DNA of 40,336 bases, taken from a virus. This document shows, piece after piece, positions 3,744 through 34,136 of this stretch. The DNA lies in IMG/VR virus record IMGVR_UViG_3300010375_000009, positions 1 to 40,336 of that record; one strand, given 5' to 3'. Both the position numbers and the translations under genes were made by a program. The notes below the pieces were generated by a model. The model had not been told where the DNA came from, searched no databases, and saw only the letters and a program-made list of their open reading frames with translations. Position 1 is the first letter of the stretch. Every line of letters begins with the position of its first letter.

Positions 3744-3997
3744 GCCACCTCGATCTTGGGCGTTAGGACAACAATCGTGCTGTCGTCGCTGTCATCGCCG
3801 GGGCGGAACTCGACGCGCTCGAACCGACGTTCAGCGTGCCGCTTCCATCCGCCGTTGCAGTCGTAAAACTGGCCGCGAACGATCTTCAATTCGCGCGATG
3901 CGTCGTGCATCTTGGCGAGGATGTTTCGCTCGATCTTGCTTTCGGGCGTGAGGACGAGCTGTTCAAGCCCGTCTTCGATGTAGAGCGCGATCTTCAC
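3740..3997 (-). CDS. Hypothetical protein, 85 aa
   Basis: It starts at GTG 3997, which overlaps the stop of the 27-residue membrane peptide in GTGA. A longer upstream reading has Arg-rich, shadow-like sequence and is rejected. The protein looks soluble: an N-terminal VKIALYIEDGLEQLVLTP strand-turn-strand, a central helix (ERNILAKMHDASRELK) and a C-terminal beta strand (STIVVLTPK). I do not recognise the family. It lies directly upstream of the exonuclease, so a link to DNA metabolism is possible by context only. Confidence 0.7.
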   Translation of the reverse strand: MKIALYIEDGLEQLVLTPESKIERNILAKMHDASRELKIVRGQFYDCNGGWKRHAERRFERVEFRPGDDSDDSTIVVLTPKIEVA

Positions 3998-4077
3998 AGG
4001 ATCACCATCAGCACGGCGAGGAACACGGCGCCGGCCATAAGCACGCCAGCGATCCGGGAGTTCTGAATCTCTGTCAT
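3994..4077 (-). CDS. Membrane micro-peptide, 27 aa
   Basis: A 27-residue reading frame with a polar N-terminus (MTEIQNSR) followed by a single hydrophobic helix (about residues 9-27, rich in Val, Leu, Ala). Its ATG overlaps the preceding gene's stop (ATGA) and its TGA overlaps the next gene's GTG (GTGA). It therefore fills exactly what would otherwise be a gap in a gapless operon, and that is the main evidence that it is translated. A single-span inner-membrane peptide is expected; role unknown. Confidence 0.6.
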   Translation of the reverse strand: MTEIQNSRIAGVLMAGAVFLAVLMVIL

Positions 4078-4268
4078 GGCCCGTGCTCCAATGCGGCAAT
4101 CTCTGCCCGTAGCGCTGCGATCCGATCCGCTTCCGACATTTCGACCGCGCCACCACGCTTGCTCAGCCACCACGCGCCAACCATGCCGCCGATCACGAAG
4201 GCGGATAACAGGGCTATGGGCCAGTATGCGAGCACCTGATCCGCGACCGCTTGCTGCTCAAGGGTCAT
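4074..4268 (-). CDS. Small membrane protein, 64 aa
   Basis: One transmembrane helix (about residues 14-36, AYWPIALLSAFVIGGMVGAW) followed by a charged, probably coiled-coil tail (SEADRIAALRAEIAALEHG). The ATG at 4268 has a good Shine-Dalgarno (GAGGA, 5-nt gap), which decides against an ATG 30 nt upstream. It sits beside the 27-residue membrane peptide, so two adjacent membrane-directed products are made from the early-left transcript. Exclusion or membrane-sensing functions are known for such small phage proteins, but nothing here is specific. Confidence 0.7.
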   Translation of the reverse strand: MTLEQQAVADQVLAYWPIALLSAFVIGGMVGAWWLSKRGGAVEMSEADRIAALRAEIAALEHGP

Positions 4269-4452
4269 GGCGGTCCTCGGCTTCGATCTCGTCCGCAATG
4301 GTCTTGATGTATTTGGACCAACGAATGCGGTCCTCCATCGAGGAAAGCGCGAACGGCGGATAGTCTTTCGGACCCGTCGTCAGCCGAGTGTGGTATCCCT
4401 CGTTTGCGCGTTGGATGATGCGATCACCTAAGCTCAGTTTTTGCTTACCCAT
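4258..4452 (-). CDS. Hypothetical protein, 64 aa
   Basis: The start at 4452 is chosen because a GGGAGAA stands upstream and residues before it read as antisense-like sequence. The protein is soluble and mixed in charge, with GDRIIQRANEGYH near the start and a helical C-terminus (RWSKYIKTIADEIEAED). Family not recognised. It overlaps the neighbours by 8 and 11 nt. Probably expressed with the whole left operon from the immunity region. Confidence 0.65.
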   Translation of the reverse strand: MGKQKLSLGDRIIQRANEGYHTRLTTGPKDYPPFALSSMEDRIRWSKYIKTIADEIEAEDRHDP

Positions 4453-4783
4453 TCGCCGTTTCTCCCTTCGTATCGTCGGTGGGGGTGGCTTTCGCGATTG
4501 CGTCGTGCAATTCGACGATGCCGTCGAACACAGGCTTGGCCGTGGACGGTGCAGCATCGATCCGCGCGATCAGGTGCGCATAGATTTTCTGCGCCGCCTC
4601 CAGAAGATCAGGGACGGCGGCGATCAGTTCGGCATTTGCTTGGATGGCTTCCCATTGCTTCTGCGAGCCGCCGTGCGTTGCCATGAAGCAGATGCGGTTT
4701 TCGCTGTCGCCATCATGGATCGCCAGATTGTCCCCATCGCCGTATTCAACAACGGTCCAAGGTCCGGGTGTATGCCTGCCCAT
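4445..4783 (-). CDS. Conserved phage protein, HTPGPW type, 112 aa
   Basis: It begins with the signature HTPGPWTVVE, then a short beta section, then NAELIAAVPDLLEAAQK (about residues 50-66). This combination marks a widespread family of small phage and prophage proteins of unknown function. The gene starts immediately after the TAG of the upstream gene, with GGGAGG 8 nt before the ATG. The C-terminal 30 residues are Ala/Thr/Asp-rich and probably disordered. Confidence 0.8.
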   Translation of the reverse strand: MGRHTPGPWTVVEYGDGDNLAIHDGDSENRICFMATHGGSQKQWEAIQANAELIAAVPDLLEAAQKIYAHLIARIDAAPSTAKPVFDGIVELHDAIAKATPTDDTKGETANG

Positions 4784-5023
4784 CTATGCCGCCTCCCATT
4801 GTTGTTCCTGTGCGTGCTGTCCCAAAGGTGTGCGAGTTGCGATAGAGGAAAATTGGCGCCTTTCCAGAACGCAATCGTTCAGCGCCGTCGTGAGCATCCC
4901 GGCAGCACGTTGGTCTTCCGCTTTTGATACCGGCGCGTAGACAGCGTGCGGACGACCGCCGCCTTCAAGACGCTCGAAATATTCCGGGTCGGTGCATTCG
5001 ATGATGTCGAGCGATGCGCTCAT
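4784..5023 (-). CDS. Hypothetical protein, 79 aa
   Basis: A small soluble protein, N-terminus MSASLDIIECTDPEYFERL, with a mid-section predicted helical (KAEDQRAAGMLTTALNDCVLERRQF). I do not recognise it. The ATG overlaps the methyltransferase-like gene's stop in ATGA. It has two Cys, too few and too far apart for a metal site. Confidence 0.6.
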   Translation of the reverse strand: MSASLDIIECTDPEYFERLEGGGRPHAVYAPVSKAEDQRAAGMLTTALNDCVLERRQFSSIATRTPLGQHAQEQQWEAA

Positions 5024-23644: not shown

Positions 23645-24048
23645 TGGGCTTCGTCGCAAACTTCGCCGAAGGCTTCATGGGCTACCAGCAGGCCCAGGGC
23701 GAAGCCGCGCAGTACAAGTTCAATGCGCGGTCGGAGCAGATCGCGGCCGATCAGGACAGCGTGAACCGGCTGGCCGATCTGAACTCGTCGCTGTCCTCGA
23801 TCAATGCGGTGCGCACATCGCGCAATTTGGACGTCGCCTCACCGACAGGGCTTGCGATCGCGGCCGATTACACTAAGCGCGCGCAGCAGGGCATCGACAC
23901 GTCGCGGTTGAATTACCTCACGCGGGCGCAAAGCGATCTCTTCGGGGCGTCGCAGGCGCAATACAAGGGCTATGCCGCGCTGATCGGCTCGTTCCTGAAA
24001 ACCGGTGATGAATTTGCGCAAGCCTTCGCGGCAGGCGGGGGCGGCTGA
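23644..24048 (+). CDS. Internal virion protein B-like (gp14 type), 134 aa
   Basis: Starts in TAATG with the nozzle gene's stop. It is a mostly helical, Ala/Gln-rich protein with a Gly/Phe-rich N-terminus (MGFVANFAEGFMGYQQAQGE) and a hydrophobic helix (AALIGSFLKTGDEFAQAF) near the end. It matches the look and place of the smallest ejected core protein of T7-like phages, which forms a pore in the outer membrane. Assignment is by size, composition and order. Confidence 0.62.
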   Translation: MGFVANFAEGFMGYQQAQGEAAQYKFNARSEQIAADQDSVNRLADLNSSLSSINAVRTSRNLDVASPTGLAIAADYTKRAQQGIDTSRLNYLTRAQSDLFGASQAQYKGYAALIGSFLKTGDEFAQAFAAGGGG

Positions 24049-26669
24049 TGGTCTCGAAACTCGGCGGCCTTCCCGAACTGTCGTATGGCCCGGCGACGCT
24101 ACAGCCCGCGCCTGTGGTGAGCGGCGATGCGACGGTGGACGCCTTTGCGCATCTGGCCGATCAGGCCGAAGGGCTTGTGAAAGACGTGTTCCGTCCCGAT
24201 GCGGAAGCGGAAGGCTCGAATGCCGTCACCAAGGATGCCAACGGCAATCTCACGGTCGCGGCGCCTTCGCTGAAGACGGTGCTTACCGGCCAGACCGAGG
24301 CCTACCAGCACGCGGCGCAACTCAGCTACATCACGCAGAGCGCGCTCGATATCCGCCCCAAGATCGCGGATTTGAAGAACGCATATGCGGACAATCCCGA
24401 CGGCTTCCGCGCGGCGCTCGACAAATACACCGGCAGCGTGCTCACCGCGACACCGCAGTCCTATCAGCCCGCGATCCGCCAGATGATCGACACGGACGGC
24501 GGCGCAGCGCTGACCGATCTCACCAACGACAAGAACAAGAAGACCGCCGACGACGCTAAGGAAAACGGCCTCAATCTCTGGCAACAAAGCGTCAACACGC
24601 TCAGCGGCTATGCGCGGTCGAACGATCTGAACAATCCGGTGGCGCAAAAGCTGCTCGCGCAGACCAAGGATTTGCAGGTCTCGCTCACAAACAACCCGGT
24701 GATCAAGCTCTCGCGCGAAGAGCAATTGAAGTTCGCCACGCTGGAATCGACGCTCAAGGCGCAGACGTTCGCGGCCCAGGGCGAAGACCTCTATCACCGC
24801 TATGGCGAAGCTGAAGCGGAGACGCAGCTCAAGGGCCTCGTCAACGATCCGTCGCTGAACCTGTCGGATGATGAGCGGCAGACCGCGATGGCGCGCGGCC
24901 TCTCGGAAATCCGCTTTCAGGCATCGCTCGACCGGGAGAACAATCAAGAAGCGCAGCGTCAGGTCGAATATCAGGCCGACGACGCAAAAGCGCAGGCGTT
25001 GGCGACCGGTGACTATTCGTCGGTGATGACGGACCAGCAAATCCGCGCGGCGTATGCGAAGAACCCGCAGCGCGCGGAACAGATCATCGAAGGGCTGCAC
25101 GGCGCCGCCGAGACCTACACGATGAAGAAATCCGTCGCGATGGCTTCACCGGCCGATCTGGCAAGCCTCGCGGCGAAATACAATCCGGCGAACCAGAGCA
25201 CCATCGTCCCCACATCGACCGGCTCGCGCGCGGGCGACAATCTCGCCAACAACAATCCCGGCAACATGAAGGTGCCAGGCAGCGACACGCAGTTCCAGCA
25301 ATTCCCGTCCATGCAGGAAGGCATCGACGCGGTCGGACACCAGATCAATCTCTACCGCTCGCGCGACGGGCTGAACACGATCGCGGACATCGTCTCGAAA
25401 TACGCGCCGCCGATGAGCAAGGGCAAGCCCGAGAACAACACAGCGGCCTATATCTCGGACGTGGCGAATGCGACCGGCATCCCGGCCAACCAGCCGCTCA
25501 CCGATGCGCAGGTGCCCGCCGTCCGCGACGCGATCATTCGGCACGAGCAAGGCGGCACGACGCCGGACGACCTGCTCGCCGGGCCGCAGCATGGCCCGAT
25601 GGGCTCCGACTTCGCCGCCCGCCAGCGCACCTATCAGGCGTTCCAGACGGCGGTCCAGGCAAGGCAGAAGGCGCTCATGTCGGACCCCCAAAACTACGTG
25701 CTGCAGAACCGCCCGGACATCGTCGCGCAGGTCAATTCGACCGACCCGCAGACGGCGCAGAACGGTGTTCGTGCATCGCTGGCGGTGCAGTCCGATCTCG
25801 GCGTTGCGCAGCCGCAGGTCCTCGCCAACGGCCAGAAGCAGGCGATCATCGCCAACTTCACCAACCCGCCCGACCCGGCGCAGCGCGCGCAGAACATGCT
25901 CACCGCGCTCGGCGGCCTGCAGGCGAAATATGGCAAATACTATCCGCAGGTGATGGCCGAACTCGCCAAGGGCGGAAAGATGCCGGCGGAAGTGACCGGC
26001 CTCGATTGGGTTCGTCAGGACCCCGGCGTCGGCGCCCGCATGGCCAACGCGGTGAACACCGGGAAGTCGGCGCTGGCGAAGCTCGTCCCCGATACCGGCG
26101 ATGTCGACAAGGCGGTGGTGCAGGGCCTCGCGGGCTTCAATGGCACGCTGCGCGGTTTCGACGGCTCGCAGATCGCGTCGCAGATGGTGCAGGCGACGCA
26201 GCTCTACGCCTACCAGCTCGTCGCGGAAGGGACCGATCCGGCGACGGCGGCGAGTCAGGCCGTGAACGACATCGTCGGCAAGAATTTCCATGTGCAGGAC
26301 ACCTACCGCGTGCCGTCGTACCTGAACGCGGGTTCTGTCGCGCGCGGCGTTTCGCTCGCGACGCAAAACCTGCACGCCGTGAACCTCGAGCCGTATGCGG
26401 GCGCCACGGGTGTCAGCGTCGGTGATCGCCAGAAGATGAGCGAATCCATCCTCAAGAGCCAAGGCGTGTGGCTCACGCTCCCGGATAACAGCGGCGTGGC
26501 GCTCGCATGGCCCGCACAGACGGGATACCTGCAAGCCCGCACGTCGAAGGGCCAGCCGATCCAGTACACATGGGCGCAGCTTTCCTCGATGGAGAAGGGC
26601 CAGCCAATCCCGATCAACACGATTCAGGACCAGCCGCCGCCTCCGGGAACGAGGACGTTCCTGAAATGA
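24048..26669 (+). CDS. Internal virion protein with a peptidoglycan-cleaving domain, 873 aa
   Basis: A large, mostly helical ejection protein. Residues 395-500 contain NNPGNMKVPG, then MQEGIDAVGHQINLYRSRDGLNTIADIVSKYAPP, then AAYISDVANATG: the pattern of lysozyme-like/transglycosylase domains carried by phage virion proteins for opening the cell wall during DNA entry. The flanking parts are helical and charged. TGATG coupling to the gp14-like gene. No other wall hydrolase is recognisable in the genome, so this domain might also bear on lysis. Confidence 0.75.
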   Translation: MVSKLGGLPELSYGPATLQPAPVVSGDATVDAFAHLADQAEGLVKDVFRPDAEAEGSNAVTKDANGNLTVAAPSLKTVLTGQTEAYQHAAQLSYITQSALDIRPKIADLKNAYADNPDGFRAALDKYTGSVLTATPQSYQPAIRQMIDTDGGAALTDLTNDKNKKTADDAKENGLNLWQQSVNTLSGYARSNDLNNPVAQKLLAQTKDLQVSLTNNPVIKLSREEQLKFATLESTLKAQTFAAQGEDLYHRYGEAEAETQLKGLVNDPSLNLSDDERQTAMARGLSEIRFQASLDRENNQEAQRQVEYQADDAKAQALATGDYSSVMTDQQIRAAYAKNPQRAEQIIEGLHGAAETYTMKKSVAMASPADLASLAAKYNPANQSTIVPTSTGSRAGDNLANNNPGNMKVPGSDTQFQQFPSMQEGIDAVGHQINLYRSRDGLNTIADIVSKYAPPMSKGKPENNTAAYISDVANATGIPANQPLTDAQVPAVRDAIIRHEQGGTTPDDLLAGPQHGPMGSDFAARQRTYQAFQTAVQARQKALMSDPQNYVLQNRPDIVAQVNSTDPQTAQNGVRASLAVQSDLGVAQPQVLANGQKQAIIANFTNPPDPAQRAQNMLTALGGLQAKYGKYYPQVMAELAKGGKMPAEVTGLDWVRQDPGVGARMANAVNTGKSALAKLVPDTGDVDKAVVQGLAGFNGTLRGFDGSQIASQMVQATQLYAYQLVAEGTDPATAASQAVNDIVGKNFHVQDTYRVPSYLNAGSVARGVSLATQNLHAVNLEPYAGATGVSVGDRQKMSESILKSQGVWLTLPDNSGVALAWPAQTGYLQARTSKGQPIQYTWAQLSSMEKGQPIPINTIQDQPPPPGTRTFLK

Positions 26670-28363
26670 ACTTCGCCTATTCGCTCGACAATTCGGACGA
26701 GGACCGCGATCAGCGCATCAGCCAGGCGCAGGTCCCGTGGACCCACGCGCTCGAAGCGACGGCGCAGGATGCGTGGGTTCATAACCCGGTGCACGCGATC
26801 GTCGACACCACCGAATATTACGAGGCGCAGCACCCCGAATGGCGCGGCCCGCTTGGCGAGCTCGAAGCGATGGGGCGGCCGGTCAGCGCGGACGAGCCGG
26901 TCGACGCCGACACGCTGAACCAGCAATACGGCGAAAGCCTCGGCCTTTCGTTCGACCAGCCGCAGCGGCGCGGTGCGGTCGACATTCTCGTCAATCAGAA
27001 GAAACAACAGCTTCAGCGCGATTACACGCTGGCCCATGCCCCGTCCGGTGTCGGCTACACGGCGGCCAGTCTCGCAACCTCGCTCGCCGTTTCGGCGGCT
27101 GATCCGCTCAACGTCGCGGCTGCGTTCGTGCCGGTCGTTGGCGAGGCGCGCGCGGGGCTTTGGGCCGAGCGGGTCGGCCCCACGGCTGCGCGGCTGGGTC
27201 AAGGCGCCATCGAAGGCGGTGTCGGCACGGCGGCGCTGCAACCGGTCGAAGCGGTCCGTGACGATGCGTTCCAGCAGGAATACGGCCCGGCCGATGCGTT
27301 CTGGAATGTGGCCTTCGGGACGGTGCTCGGCGGCGGCTTGCACGCAGGCATCGGCAAAATCTCCGACATGCTCGACCGGCTGCACTCCGACACGCGCGAA
27401 GCGGCGCTGCGAACGGCGGTGGCGCAATCGGCGGACGGCCGGCCCGCCGATGTGGAAGCGGCGCTCAAGAGCGATCCGGCTTATGCGACCGTGACCGAGC
27501 CGGGGCCGGTTACGTCGCTGCCCGTGATCGATGAAGAGGGGATCAGGCTTTCGTCGCGCGAGGCGCAGATCGAATCCGATATTTCGTCACTCAAAGAGCA
27601 TCTTTCGGGACTGCCCGAAGGCGATCAGAACGCATCCGACACGCTTGCGCGTCTGCAGGCTGTCGAACAACAACTCGCCTCTCCCGATCTCGACCCGGCG
27701 ATGCACAAGACGCTGTCCACGCGCCGCGACGAATTGCTGACGAACACTACGCCTGAGCAATTGCAGGAAGCAGCAAGCCCGATTGATGAACGGCGCAACG
27801 CGCAGAACCAGCTCGACGCCAGCCAGCGTGAACTCGATACGGTGCGCGCTCAGCAGGTCGACCGGCTCGCCCAACGGCTTTCCCCCGAAGCGCTCGAAAG
27901 GTTGCGTTCCTATGGCTACAAACCAGAACCCCTCGATCTTGCAGGCCAGCAAGAAGCGTCTCGCGGCGTTCAAGCGCCTGATGCAGGATCAATCGCTCAG
28001 CCCGAAGGACTTGGCGGTGGCGAAGGAACTGTACCAGCGGCAACAAGCACTGGTGCAGTACCGCAAGACTTTAGCGACGCCCTGAGCCGCGCGCGCGATG
28101 CCTCGCTCTCGCCCGGCCCGACGCCCGCCACCTCGCCGCAAGCCTCTCTCGCCGCCGATGCGCTGCTGAAATCCCGCGCCGGTGACGATGTCGACGTGGA
28201 GCATCAGCAGGCGCTCGCGCAGGTCGCGGAATACGAGAAGCAGGGCATCCTGTCGGCTGAGCAGGCCGAACAGGCGCGCGCCGGGAGCGAGGACATCCAG
28301 AAAGCGCAGCGTGACGGCGAGGCGGCGAAAGCGGCGGCGCGGTGCCTGCTGCTGCATCCGTAG
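26666..28363 (+). CDS. Internal virion protein (gp15-like), 565 aa
   Basis: Starts in an ATGA overlap. Hydrophobic Ala/Gly stretches at about residues 130-230 (VGYTAASLATSLAVSAADPL, GTVLGGGLHAGIGK) could cross the membrane after ejection. Coiled-coil-like charged helices follow (about 290-420). From 27912 to 28085 the frame's third positions become AT-rich (22 of 57 codons end in G/C by my count), while another frame is GC-rich and encodes a nested ORF; normal usage resumes after. The C-terminus ends AARCLLLHP. Core/ejection role inferred from place. Confidence 0.68.
   Translation: MNFAYSLDNSDEDRDQRISQAQVPWTHALEATAQDAWVHNPVHAIVDTTEYYEAQHPEWRGPLGELEAMGRPVSADEPVDADTLNQQYGESLGLSFDQPQRRGAVDILVNQKKQQLQRDYTLAHAPSGVGYTAASLATSLAVSAADPLNVAAAFVPVVGEARAGLWAERVGPTAARLGQGAIEGGVGTAALQPVEAVRDDAFQQEYGPADAFWNVAFGTVLGGGLHAGIGKISDMLDRLHSDTREAALRTAVAQSADGRPADVEAALKSDPAYATVTEPGPVTSLPVIDEEGIRLSSREAQIESDISSLKEHLSGLPEGDQNASDTLARLQAVEQQLASPDLDPAMHKTLSTRRDELLTNTTPEQLQEAASPIDERRNAQNQLDASQRELDTVRAQQVDRLAQRLSPEALERLRSYGYKPEPLDLAGQQEASRGVQAPDAGSIAQPEGLGGGEGTVPAATSTGAVPQDFSDALSRARDASLSPGPTPATSPQASLAADALLKSRAGDDVDVEHQQALAQVAEYEKQGILSAEQAEQARAGSEDIQKAQRDGEAAKAAARCLLLHP
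27912..28085 (+). CDS. Nested overlapping ORF, 57 aa
   Basis: Lies wholly inside the internal virion gene in the +1 frame. Its codons end in G/C in 46 of 57 cases by my count, against 22 of 57 for the larger gene over the same bases. The product reads as a natural helical protein (QASKKRLAAFKRLM, SPKDLAVAKELYQRQQALVQYRKT). GAAAGG lies about 10 nt before the ATG. Either an overprinted gene, or a part of the virion protein displaced by paired frameshifts or reached by programmed frameshifting. Confidence 0.5.
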   Translation: MATNQNPSILQASKKRLAAFKRLMQDQSLSPKDLAVAKELYQRQQALVQYRKTLATP

Positions 28364-28376
28364 GATAGGAGGCAAA

Positions 28377-28622
28377 ATGGCTGACAACCCGTTAGATTTT
28401 CAGAGCGCGCACGACCGCAAACATGGCCCTGACGCAGAGTTCGTCTATCGCGATGAGCGAGGGTGCAGTTGGTTCAAATTCACATGTTCATATCGCGACG
28501 GAGAAGACGAATTTTGCTTCGAAATCTGGGCGCTCAATGTGGCCGATGCAGAGCGGCGACTCCGAGCAATCTGCCAGACCGCTAAGGTCGACGGCCAGTT
28601 GTTCCATGAAGTGCCTGCTTAG
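28377..28622 (+). CDS. Possible moron: small soluble protein, 81 aa
   Basis: A self-contained gene with its own AGGAGG 4 nt before the ATG, in AT-richer sequence than its neighbours. It is inserted between two internal virion genes that would otherwise be adjacent. The product has FKFTCSY and FEIWALNVADAERRLRAI, a beta-then-helix pattern seen in unnamed small alphaproteobacterial proteins. It is unlike a virion protein. Independent gain is likely; function (host modulation, defence or counter-defence) is unknown. Confidence 0.7.
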   Translation: MADNPLDFQSAHDRKHGPDAEFVYRDERGCSWFKFTCSYRDGEDEFCFEIWALNVADAERRLRAICQTAKVDGQLFHEVPA

Positions 28623-28631
28623 GGGGATTGT

Positions 28632-31145
28632 GTGGCGATCAAGGACTGCATCGACGAAATCCGGAAGATGTCCGCCGCGGACGATCTCAGCGACGAGGAC
28701 ATTCACGCCATCGCGGACGAAATCCAGCGCCGGGCCGCGAACAAGCGTGCACGCGACAAGCTGTTGTCCCAAAAAGATGCGCTCGATGAGGCGGCGGAAG
28801 ACTTCACCAAGGAAGCCGACATCGCGGCCAAGATCGAAGCGCGCAACAAAGCGATCAACATCGTCACCCGCGCCAAGCTGGACGAGTTCATGCGCCAGGC
28901 GGTCGACGCGCATGGCCTCAGGCCCGACGAAGCGATCCGCGCGCTGAACGTCGGCATCGAGAAGAAGCTGCCCGGCGGACACCTCTCTGTCGATGCACGC
29001 ACCAAGGCGCTCACCGGCGAATATGTCGGCGGCCTCGTGGCGGATCTGGAACGCGCGGGCCTCTGGGAATTTCTCTCGCGCCGCATGGGGCTGTTCGGGC
29101 GGGATGCCGGCGCGCTGGACCGCGACATCGCGAAAGCCATGTGGTCGATCCGCGACGGCAAATCCACGGCGGACGGCATTTCGGTCGAGGCCGCGCACAT
29201 CGGCGAGATATTCCACAAATGGCAGGAGGCGGCGCGGCTTCGCTCGAACCGCGCTGGTGCCTTCATCCGCGAGGCTCCCGGCTACATCATGCGCCAGAGC
29301 CACGACCCGCTTGCGATCACCCGGGCGGGCCGCGAGGACTGGACCGCGTTCACCAAGCCACTGCTCGATGCGGAGCAGACCTTCGGCGCCTCCGATCCCG
29401 ACCGCTTCCTGAGCACCACCTATTCCGCGCTATCCTCCGGCGAGTTCGTCCGGACCGGCGCGGCGCAGACCGACCTTGCGTTCAAAGGCCCCGGCAATCT
29501 CGCCCGGCGCATCAGCAAAGACCGCACGCTGCATTTCAAGGATGCGGAATCGTTCCTCGCCTATAACGACCGCTTCGGCACCAAGAACCTGATCGAAGGC
29601 GTGTTCTCCGGCCTGCAGAAATCCGCGCAGGACACGGCGCTGATGGAGACATGGGGCACGAACCCGCGCGCCATGTTCGACGACGTGCGCGACGCCTTCG
29701 CCAAGGCGCATCGCGACGATCACCCCGAGTGGTCGCGCAAGCTGCACGACGCTTCGCTGGACAACCAGTTCAAGGAAGTCGACGGCACGACGCGCATCGC
29801 GAACAATCTGGATATCGCCCGATGGGCAGGCGGCTTCCGCGCGCTGAGTTCGATGTCGCATCTCGGCTTCTCCACGCTGTCTTCCCTCCCCGATATCGCG
29901 ACCGCCGCAGCGGAATTGCGCTGGCAGGGAGAGAACCTGGGGCGCGCGTACTCGGGCGTTCTTTCCGACGTGCTCAAGGGCCGGTCTTCTGCCGAGCAGC
30001 GCGCGCTGGCTGCGGAGATTGGCGTGGGGATCGAAGGAGCGCTCGGCGATGCCTATGCGCGGTTCTCGTCCACGGACGGCCTTCCGGGACAGGCATCGAA
30101 GCTGATGCGGCTCTACTTCAAGGCCAACCTGCTGTCGTGGTGGACCGACGCGGTGAAGGGTGGCGCGGGCAAGATGATGGCGTTCCGCGCGGCCGAACAG
30201 GCGGGGAAGTCGTGGGCCAAGGTCGACGGGCGATTCCGTGACGCGCTGTCGGGCTACGGCATCGACGAAGCGAAGTGGGACATCATCCGGCAGGGCAAGC
30301 TCAAGGCGGTGGACGGCAAGTCCTATCTGACGCCGGACGGCGTGCGATCGCTGCCCGATGCCGCGTTCGATGCCGATCCGCGCAAGGCGCAGGGGATGCG
30401 CGACGAACTCTCCACCGCGCTCCAAGCCTTCTACACCGACCGCACGGACTCCGCGGTCATCACACCCGGCGCACACGAACGCGCCATCCTGAACCAGGGC
30501 ACGCAGCGTGGGACATGGCTCGGCGAGGGATTGCGCTTCATCGCGCAGTTCAAATCCTTCCCGCTGTCGTTCGCCACCAAGGTCTTCGGACGTGAACTCA
30601 ACGGCCTCGGGCTGGTGCAGGGCTTGCTCAAGGGCCGGGGCGATATCCTCGGGCTGGCCCATACGATCGCGGCGACGACGGCAATGGGGATGATCGCGCT
30701 CGAAGCCAAGGAAGTGCTCAAGGGGCATACCCCGCTCGATCCGTTCGGCGAGCATTGGGCCGGCGCATGGGGCAACGCCATGACGCAGGGCGGCGGCCTC
30801 GGCATCTATGGCGATTATCTGCTCGGGGACTTTTCGAGCTACGGCTCGACACCTTTGGAGACCGCAGCTGGTCCGTACTATTCGAACGTCGCCCAACTGC
30901 TCAAAATCTATTCCGACGCGCGGCAGGGCCAGAAAAGCACGGCTGGCGAGGCCATCCGCTTCGCGCGCGACAACACGCCGGGGGCCAATCTGTTCTACGT
31001 GAAGGCGGCGCTCGATTACCTCGTGCTGTACCACCTTCAGGAAATGGCCTCGCCCGGCTATCTGCGGCGCACCGAACAGAACCTCAAGAAGAACACCGGT
31101 CAGGGCTACATCTTCCCGCCCTCGCAATACGCGGTCGGCCAATAG
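28632..31145 (+). CDS. Large internal virion / DNA ejection protein (gp16-like), 837 aa
   Basis: GTG 28632 follows AGGGGGA. A long helical protein with many charged heptad-like stretches at the N-terminus, hydrophobic patches towards the C-terminus (DILGLAHTIAATTAMGMIALEA, about 672-693) and LLSWWTDAVKGGAGKMMAF (about 500). It is the last and largest of the core genes, consistent with the ejection protein that spans the inner membrane. There is no lysozyme motif here; that sits in the 873-residue neighbour. Its TAG is followed after 1 nt by leader element 4. Confidence 0.72.
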   Translation: MAIKDCIDEIRKMSAADDLSDEDIHAIADEIQRRAANKRARDKLLSQKDALDEAAEDFTKEADIAAKIEARNKAINIVTRAKLDEFMRQAVDAHGLRPDEAIRALNVGIEKKLPGGHLSVDARTKALTGEYVGGLVADLERAGLWEFLSRRMGLFGRDAGALDRDIAKAMWSIRDGKSTADGISVEAAHIGEIFHKWQEAARLRSNRAGAFIREAPGYIMRQSHDPLAITRAGREDWTAFTKPLLDAEQTFGASDPDRFLSTTYSALSSGEFVRTGAAQTDLAFKGPGNLARRISKDRTLHFKDAESFLAYNDRFGTKNLIEGVFSGLQKSAQDTALMETWGTNPRAMFDDVRDAFAKAHRDDHPEWSRKLHDASLDNQFKEVDGTTRIANNLDIARWAGGFRALSSMSHLGFSTLSSLPDIATAAAELRWQGENLGRAYSGVLSDVLKGRSSAEQRALAAEIGVGIEGALGDAYARFSSTDGLPGQASKLMRLYFKANLLSWWTDAVKGGAGKMMAFRAAEQAGKSWAKVDGRFRDALSGYGIDEAKWDIIRQGKLKAVDGKSYLTPDGVRSLPDAAFDADPRKAQGMRDELSTALQAFYTDRTDSAVITPGAHERAILNQGTQRGTWLGEGLRFIAQFKSFPLSFATKVFGRELNGLGLVQGLLKGRGDILGLAHTIAATTAMGMIALEAKEVLKGHTPLDPFGEHWAGAWGNAMTQGGGLGIYGDYLLGDFSSYGSTPLETAAGPYYSNVAQLLKIYSDARQGQKSTAGEAIRFARDNTPGANLFYVKAALDYLVLYHLQEMASPGYLRRTEQNLKKNTGQGYIFPPSQYAVGQ

Positions 31146-32615: not shown

Positions 32616-34136
32616 ATGGCGCTCTGGACGCCGCGCCTCATCAAGCCGACCAGCCATGTCCGGGCGAACCTCGCGCATCCGCAGGCCCGCGAACTCGCGT
32701 TCTTTCTGCACAATGTCGGTGGCGGGACGTTCGTCGATGCGGTGACCGGAAAGACCGAGGGCGCGGCGTCCGGTCAATCCGCGCTTGCTTCCTCGGAAGG
32801 CAATGTCCTCCACTTGGGCGGCACGACGCGGTCGAGCGGAACGGCGTTCGTCAACACGCAAGCCACGGTGCAGAACTTCTGCACGGTCATCGCCAATCTC
32901 CGGCTCACGACCAAGCCCGCTTCGCGGTGCACGGCCGTTCAGTACGGCGTTTCGAGCAATGGCAGCGGGCCATTTGTCGGCTTCGACTCCAACGGGTTCG
33001 CGCACGGCGGATGCTCAGGCACAAATGGCACCAACAGTTCCGCGAGCCTCGACGCGGTCGATCACACGGGCAAGTGGGTTGTCGTAGCGGGATCGTGGTT
33101 TCCGACTGGTGCGAAGACAAACAACGCCGTATCGAACGGCTCGTGCGTGTGGGTCGACGGCGTCGCGAAATTCTTTGGCACAGCCGGCGCTGGCTCCCAA
33201 TCGACCAATGCCGTGCCGAACACGCTGGCGCTCGGCCGCGAGATTTCGAACTACAACAACTTTTTCGTGGGCGACATCGCCTGGGGCGTAGGCCTCAACC
33301 GGCTGCTGTCCGACGACGAGCAGGCCTGGTGGGCACAGCACGCCTATGAGGTGCTCGAACAGAACGTCAGCCGTTCGTTCTTCTCGATGCCGGCTGCTGC
33401 CGGCGGCAACGTCTACAACGACTCAGTCTCGGAAAGCGGCTCAGCGTCCGATAGCCCGACTGATGTTGCGACGCTGCCATCAAGCGCTTCAGAAAGCGGT
33501 TCTGCATCTGACGCACCGTCTTCCGTAGCCACGCTGCCATCGTCCGTTTCTGAAAGCGGAACGGCCAGCGATGCTGCGTCCTCGCTCGCGACATTGCCGT
33601 CCACTGCGGCCGAAAGCGGCGCGGCATCGGACGCGCCGAGCAACATTGGAACGTTTGGGGTCAGCGCATCAGAGAGCGGATCGGCTGCTGATACTCCGTC
33701 GACCGGCACAACGTTCGCGTCGACCATCTCTGAGACCGGAACAGCCTCCGACGCCCCGTCCAGCGTTGCCGTCCTGCCGTCGAGCGTTTCGGACTCGCTC
33801 GCGGCTTTCGATGCGGGCGCTATTCTGGCGGGAAGCGATCCGTTCGCGGGCACCGTCATCCCCGGCGCGCGCTTCCCGCAGCGCCAAGAGCGTCTTGTCG
33901 ATTCGAATGGCCGCATCACCGAGCCGTGGTATCGCTGGGCCAAATTCGTCGACGCCGCTGTGCGCGCGCTCCACGTCGGCAAGGCCGACATCAACACGCC
34001 GATCATCCTCACGTCCGCCACCGCTGCCGACGTGCCCACTCCGCCGTCCGACGTTTGGTACATCTTCGTCGACAACGTGACGGGAAAGATCGTCTTCAAG
34101 GCTTACACCGGAACCACTCGCGAGCTTGACCCATGA
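32616..34136 (+). CDS. Tail fibre with lectin-like domain and Ser/Ala repeats, 506 aa
   Basis: Residues 1-250 resemble a concanavalin/LamG-type sugar-binding sandwich (ELAFFLHNVGGGTFVDAVTGK, ..LGREISNYNNFFVGDIAWGVGLNRLLSDDE). Residues 271-390 are six full copies and a partial of a 20-residue repeat of the type SESGSASDAPSSVATLPSS. The C-terminal 110 residues form a compact end (EPWYRWAKFVDAAVRALHVG). A receptor-binding fibre with an extended shaft is the natural reading. The end overlaps the tailspike start (ATGA). Confidence 0.68.
   Translation: MALWTPRLIKPTSHVRANLAHPQARELAFFLHNVGGGTFVDAVTGKTEGAASGQSALASSEGNVLHLGGTTRSSGTAFVNTQATVQNFCTVIANLRLTTKPASRCTAVQYGVSSNGSGPFVGFDSNGFAHGGCSGTNGTNSSASLDAVDHTGKWVVVAGSWFPTGAKTNNAVSNGSCVWVDGVAKFFGTAGAGSQSTNAVPNTLALGREISNYNNFFVGDIAWGVGLNRLLSDDEQAWWAQHAYEVLEQNVSRSFFSMPAAAGGNVYNDSVSESGSASDSPTDVATLPSSASESGSASDAPSSVATLPSSVSESGTASDAASSLATLPSTAAESGAASDAPSNIGTFGVSASESGSAADTPSTGTTFASTISETGTASDAPSSVAVLPSSVSDSLAAFDAGAILAGSDPFAGTVIPGARFPQRQERLVDSNGRITEPWYRWAKFVDAAVRALHVGKADINTPIILTSATAADVPTPPSDVWYIFVDNVTGKIVFKAYTGTTRELDP
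33426..33800 (+). repeat. 60-bp tandem repeat coding for Ser-rich units
   Basis: Units begin at 33426, 33486, 33546, 33606, 33666 and 33726, with a partial at 33786. Each codes for (V/A)SESG-ASDAPSS-ATLPS with changes. Codon-level divergence between units shows they are not recent copies. They form an extended fibre segment. Confidence 0.75.

Follow-up and report, generated by a model that had tools for sequence, protein, structure and literature searches.

The window analyzed here is a virus record, taken over its full length of 40,336 bases. It has genes for an integrase, an exonuclease VIII-like protein, and a RuvC-like resolvase, and it also encodes a portal-type head-tail adaptor, a major head protein, tail proteins, and a block of internal virion proteins; we take the virus to be a temperate podovirus. 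One gene of that block, for an internal virion (ejection) protein, houses the reading frame described below and is called the host gene. Its best match is phrog_3003 (E value of 1.5e-34), with a weaker match to phrog_342, an internal virion protein with an endolysin domain. The mechanical ORF opens at 26507, but homology starts only at the ATG at 26666, which overlaps the 3' end of the upstream gene. Judged from the sequence, the gene most likely starts at this ATG, the part from 26507 being an upstream extension of the ORF, and the protein length in Table 1 is counted from there because the homology begins there. The 5' neighbor is an endolysin/tape-measure-like gene (24048 to 26669), and the 3' neighbor is a large virion structural gene (28632 to 31145, phrog_684). 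Both the sequence match and the position, between endolysin-like and large internal virion proteins, are those of a phrog_3003 member, and the gene order is the same in three other loci, L002, L004, and L017.

Two further features were seen around the host gene. An 81-aa ORF on the plus strand (28377 to 28622) with a strong Shine-Dalgarno sequence (GGAGG) lies between two internal virion protein genes and has weak matches to phrog_2920 (5e-5) and phrog_10509. The flanking genes nearly adjoin in L002 and L004, and the ORF is apparently a gene inserted in the lineage of the window phage. Near the C terminus of the host protein, residue 560 (28343 to 28345) is a cysteine (CLLLHP) that is invariant in 14 of 14 aligned relatives, while the C-terminal half is otherwise variable around it.

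Table 1. Positions of the host gene, the nested ORF, and the segments of the codon-frame switch
Feature	Position	Strand	Basis
Host gene, internal virion (ejection) protein, 565 aa	26666..28363	+	phrog_3003 match, homology start
Transition zone, poor codon usage in both frames	27860..27920	+	Synonymous scores
Possible weak Shine-Dalgarno sequence GAAAGG for the nested ATG	27896..27901	+	Duplex energy
Nested ORF, +1 frame, ATG to TGA, 57 aa (MATNQNPSILQASKKRLAAFKRLMQDQSLSPKDLAVAKELYQRQQALVQYRKTLATP)	27912..28085	+	ORF list, codon scores, fold
Core, 49 codons, +1 frame gene-like, main frame a passive shifted reading	27921..28067	+	Codon and synonymous scores
Return of main-frame preference, encoding (D)FSDALSRARDAS	28068..28110	+	Codon scores, L002 alignment

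Codon-frame switch within the host gene

A preliminary description of this DNA had reported, in the +1 frame of the host gene, an ORF of 57 residues that has both an ATG and a stop. A recount confirmed the coordinates, with the ATG at 27912, the TGA at 28083 to 28085, and the nested ORF entirely within the main ORF. The count of 46 G/C-ending codons among the 57 of the +1 frame was also correct, while the count for the main frame is 23 of 57 to 58 rather than 22. The 46 of 57 is ordinary when taken alone, because the third positions of the +1 frame are the first positions of the main frame, where G+C is about 0.75 throughout the gene. The anomaly is instead the drop in main-frame GC3 together with a full switch of the three-position pattern (G+C of 0.61/0.33/0.86 when read in the +1 frame). 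The overall G+C content of the nested stretch is 0.59, compared with 0.62 to 0.72 in its neighbors.

We used six other large genes of the window, with 4,369 training codons, as the codon usage reference. Over the 57 codons from 27912 to 28085, the log-likelihood of the +1 frame is above that of the main frame by 27.7 nats, whereas 4,027 null windows from other genes of the phage gave a mean difference of -57.1 (SD, 13.0) and a maximum of -9.4; the far better codon usage first described for the +1 frame is thus borne out. With synonymous choice only, the main frame has a z score of -8.7 (null minimum, -6.9) and the +1 frame one of -2.4 (null maximum, -3.05). A coding signal specific to the embedded frame is present in the log-likelihood, synonymous, and core scores, and the frame switch is confirmed as real, strong, and far beyond chance. 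That a free linker of odd composition produced it by accident would suit a region that is variable and predicted to be disordered, but both frames lie beyond every null window, and this explanation is strongly disfavored as very improbable.

Over the full span from ATG to TGA, the nested ORF scores lower than most real genes do (windows as low make up 3.6% by z score and 0.6% by frame difference), an effect of the first two codons after the ATG and of the last five. In the core, nothing in the scores separates the +1 frame from the true genes of the phage (z score of -0.31 versus 0.10 ± 1.28 for real genes) or the main frame from a passive minus-one reading (-8.97 versus -7.6 ± 1.5 for shifted readings of true genes). 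The nested-minus-main score is 36.9 versus 45.5 ± 10.7 for true genes. These values somewhat flatter the +1 frame, since the core limits were set with the data that they describe.

The boundaries of the switch were located with a two-state model and sliding synonymous scores, which place the 3' end of the +1-like region at about 28064 to 28070. The 5' end is less certain, as the model puts it at 27858 to 27876 and good +1 synonymous usage begins only from about 27920. The transition zone has z scores of about -3.3 in the main frame and about -0.7 to -3.3 in the +1 frame and contains the rare codons AGG, TTG, CGT, and CTT. On the 3' side, main-frame preference is back about six codons ahead of the nested stop. 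The segment in which it returns encodes residues that L002 has in part as well. It also covers the five codons before the nested stop, ACT TTA GCG ACG CCC, of which ACT occurs 8 times and TTA not once among the 4,369 training codons. Among 49-codon +1 segments from the other genes, 1.6% have, as here, both an ATG within -3 to +4 codons of the segment and a stop no more than 6 codons away.

Other reading frames were considered at the locus. A gene on the opposite strand was rejected, as the reverse frames hold stops or score below 0, and so was a longer +1 gene from the TTG at 27783, since +1 codon usage is poor before 27912. Elsewhere in the host gene, main-frame codon usage is also poor at 27728 to 27790 (z score of about -4.8 over 16 codons), a segment without a gene-like alternative frame. 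In the ORF at 32616 to 34136, the +2 frame scores about the same as the main frame over one 57-codon window (33468 to 33638; difference of +1.4), which is the top +2-frame score among the training genes.

A programmed +1 (or -2) frameshift, one of the readings first suggested, would yield a truncated internal virion protein with a helical hairpin tail. The +1 frame indeed stays open over 27783 to 28085, and the switch is closely preceded by rare AGG and TTG codons. Inspection by eye, however, recognized no known +1 slip motif near the switch, the stretch from 27783 to 27912 has poor codon usage in the +1 frame, and an ATG is available. This is the weakest of the earlier readings, and we consider it the least probable of all the explanations weighed here.

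Predicted structures and relatives of the two translations

AlphaFold2, run on the single sequence, predicted the nested peptide to be a helical hairpin with helices at residues 7 to 24 and 31 to 54 (mean pLDDT of 79, with 86 to 89 in the core), in agreement with the helical protein that had been proposed for the +1 frame. The peptide looks soluble, and its sequence gives no hint of a signal or membrane segment. A Foldseek search against the PDB returned generic helical hairpins only (MexA and others; best E value of 0.55). Pfam matches to Gal11_ABD1 (0.0014) and the H-NS N-terminal domain (0.011) were below cutoffs and were taken as generic helix matches, and the idea that the peptide repeats the host protein's own helical region was dropped, the similarity being no better than with shuffles. 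The host protein, modeled together with seven relatives, is confidently helical at about residues 300 to 400 and has pLDDT values below 50 over residues 415 to 509, which cover the whole nested stretch (416 to 473). The main-frame residues over that stretch are predicted to be disordered, the low pLDDT being an indirect sign only because the alignment depth is small.

We sought relatives in viral scans, a genome scan, whole-genome surveys with the neighboring gene, and phage and plasmid collections. The database search proposed earlier for the +1 peptide was run, and no relative was detected in the libraries or in the viral, genome, phage, and plasmid collections searched. The only near relatives of the host gene locus in these collections are L002 (63% identity in the neighboring gene) and L004 (62%). 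The host protein of L002 is 44% identical to that of the window, and its gene has ordinary main-frame codons in the region and no +1 ORF there. In L004, the homologue (3777 to 4994; 405 aa) is without about residues 275 to 470, the central helical/linker region, so the linker is dispensable in that virus.

Sixteen relatives of the internal virion protein, from Pelagibacter, Pseudomonas, Vibrio, Stenotrophomonas, and phiV10-like phages and from bacterial contigs, were scanned for a comparable second-frame stretch. None of the 16 had one (best value of 0.10 nats per codon versus 0.74 here), and local alignments of both frames to them were not significant. A scan covering 98 large ORFs of the window and of the loci compared with it, which left out the window's own internal virion protein and gives a rough base rate only, found strong second-frame hits only in spurious-looking ORFs that were on the wrong strand, overlapped two better-supported genes, or lay upstream of a real start.

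Embedded gene or frameshift scar

For the nested ATG, the GAAAGG sequence forms a duplex of -3.6 kcal/mol, a value that 29% of out-of-frame internal ATGs also reach. Folding of the mRNA about the nested ATG is weak, at -10.5 kcal/mol; true starts average -13.2 and out-of-frame ATGs average -18.5, with only 1.6% of the latter as weak. This openness and the coincidence of ATG and stop with the core cannot be treated as wholly separate from the lower G+C of the stretch.

The explanation that we tentatively place first is that the stretch is a small embedded gene of 57 aa with its own ATG and stop and that the linker of the host gene is its passive reader. It is favored by the codon scores of the +1 frame, by the ATG and stop near the core ends, by the open mRNA at the ATG, by the predicted helical hairpin, and by the linker, which is predicted to be disordered and is dispensable in L004. 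Against it are the weak Shine-Dalgarno sequence, the ACT and TTA near the end, the low score over the full 57 codons, the lack of detected relatives in the collections searched, the L002 gene without such an ORF, the return of main-frame preference before the nested stop, and the lack of any sign of a net insertion relative to L002. With somewhat more reserve, we suggest the fuller reading that the internal virion protein gene carries an out-of-frame helical-hairpin gene and that the larger, widespread gene, whose frame is the passive one, came to extend across it as a disordered linker.

Ribosomes starting at the internal ATG would then read the internal virion protein mRNA in the +1 frame as far as the TGA and make a 57-aa helical-hairpin protein. 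Read in the other frame as part of the host gene, the stretch would give about 58 residues of disordered linker, rich in Gly, Pro, Ala, and Ser, that lie between the helical segment and the conserved C-terminal segment of the host protein. We infer both a ribosome start at 27912 and a function for the peptide. As a guess, its role would be that of a small virion, assembly, or late host-directed protein, since its synthesis would coincide with that of the ejection proteins.

Frameshifts, biological and technical taken together, are a possible but less probable explanation. The biological version, rather unlikely by itself but a serious rival, is that two compensating indels (near 27860 to 27920 and near 28065 to 28070) shifted a helical sequence that the ancestral internal virion protein held in its own frame, so that the stretch now yields a disordered linker while the +1 ORF goes unexpressed. 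Consistent with it, the codon switch falls inside the ORF and not exactly at its ATG and TGA, main-frame usage is back before the rare codons ACT and TTA, and the host protein is already helical immediately upstream. The region between anchors has 154 residues in the window and 145 in L002, which gives no sign of net insertion, and this roughly equal length also fits such indels. A hybrid translation (main, +1, main) also scores 162 against L002, compared with 140 for the main frame alone, but shuffles reach these scores in 3% and 5% of trials, respectively, and L002 is too diverged to choose between the frames. The near coincidence of the segment with an ATG and a stop and the open mRNA at the ATG would moreover be chance, and both indels would need to be recent because the main frame shows no codon adaptation.

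The same lack of adaptation would fit two sequencing or assembly indels, as would the origin of the record, whose ends are classed by IMG/VR rules and which is therefore probably an uncultivated metagenome contig. The two errors, separated by about 150 bases, would need to offset each other exactly without closing the ORF, and the other large structural genes look intact; we regard this arrangement as quite improbable. Improbable, too, is a captured and unexpressed remnant, in which a piece of a small gene recombined into a dispensable linker and is merely read through. The passive main frame, the dispensable linker, and a G+C content below that of the neighbors agree with such a capture, but no donor was found in the libraries and collections searched, the start and stop are intact, and the mRNA is open at the ATG.

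Of the readings that the preliminary description offered, an embedded gene and a pair of frameshifts thus survive, whereas a plain overprint of the virion gene fits poorly: the codons mark +1 as the established frame and the main frame as passive. The weights given to the embedded gene and to the frameshifts are a judgment and not a computation. If the embedded gene is real, other genes can lie within the disordered linkers of virion proteins, with the embedded frame carrying the coding signature and the large structural gene reading passively. If the stretch is a frameshift scar instead, such a linker can arise by a shift of frame in a helical segment.

Comparison with known systems

Rz1 is the standard case of an embedded out-of-frame gene in double-stranded DNA phages, and gene finders usually discard such genes; to our knowledge, they are rarely reported in these phages. 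The host gene itself resembles the internal virion proteins of phrog_3003 and phrog_342, as in Pelagibacter phage HTVC100P, Pseudomonas phage Ab31, and phiV10-like phages, in sequence and gene order, and differs from the 16 relatives scanned in having a second-frame stretch. In virus overlapping genes, the frame nearer to genome codon usage is taken as ancestral, and older de novo genes can also gain genome-like codon usage (PMC8227390). By this rule, the nested frame would be ancestral here, so the rule does not favor a new gene simply overprinted on the virion gene; yet it is the host gene that has homologues, and none was found for the nested ORF. The codons could look the same, however, if an old nested gene were under strong constraint and the linker that it overlaps under none.

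In the embedded spanin genes Rz/Rz1 of lambda, Rz1 is a lipoprotein lysis gene, of tested function, inside another lysis gene (PMC6139136, PMC5295617). As there, a small ORF lies wholly inside a larger gene, out of frame, in a double-stranded DNA phage; unlike Rz1, it lies in a virion protein gene, and its putative peptide is soluble-looking and predicted to be helical. The sgl genes of single-stranded RNA phages are de novo embedded lysis genes and, like the ORF described here, are short, unrelated ORFs embedded in larger genes and overlooked by annotation (PMC7693330). Unlike those lysis genes of RNA phages, the ORF in the window lies in a stretch whose codon usage marks the embedded frame as established.
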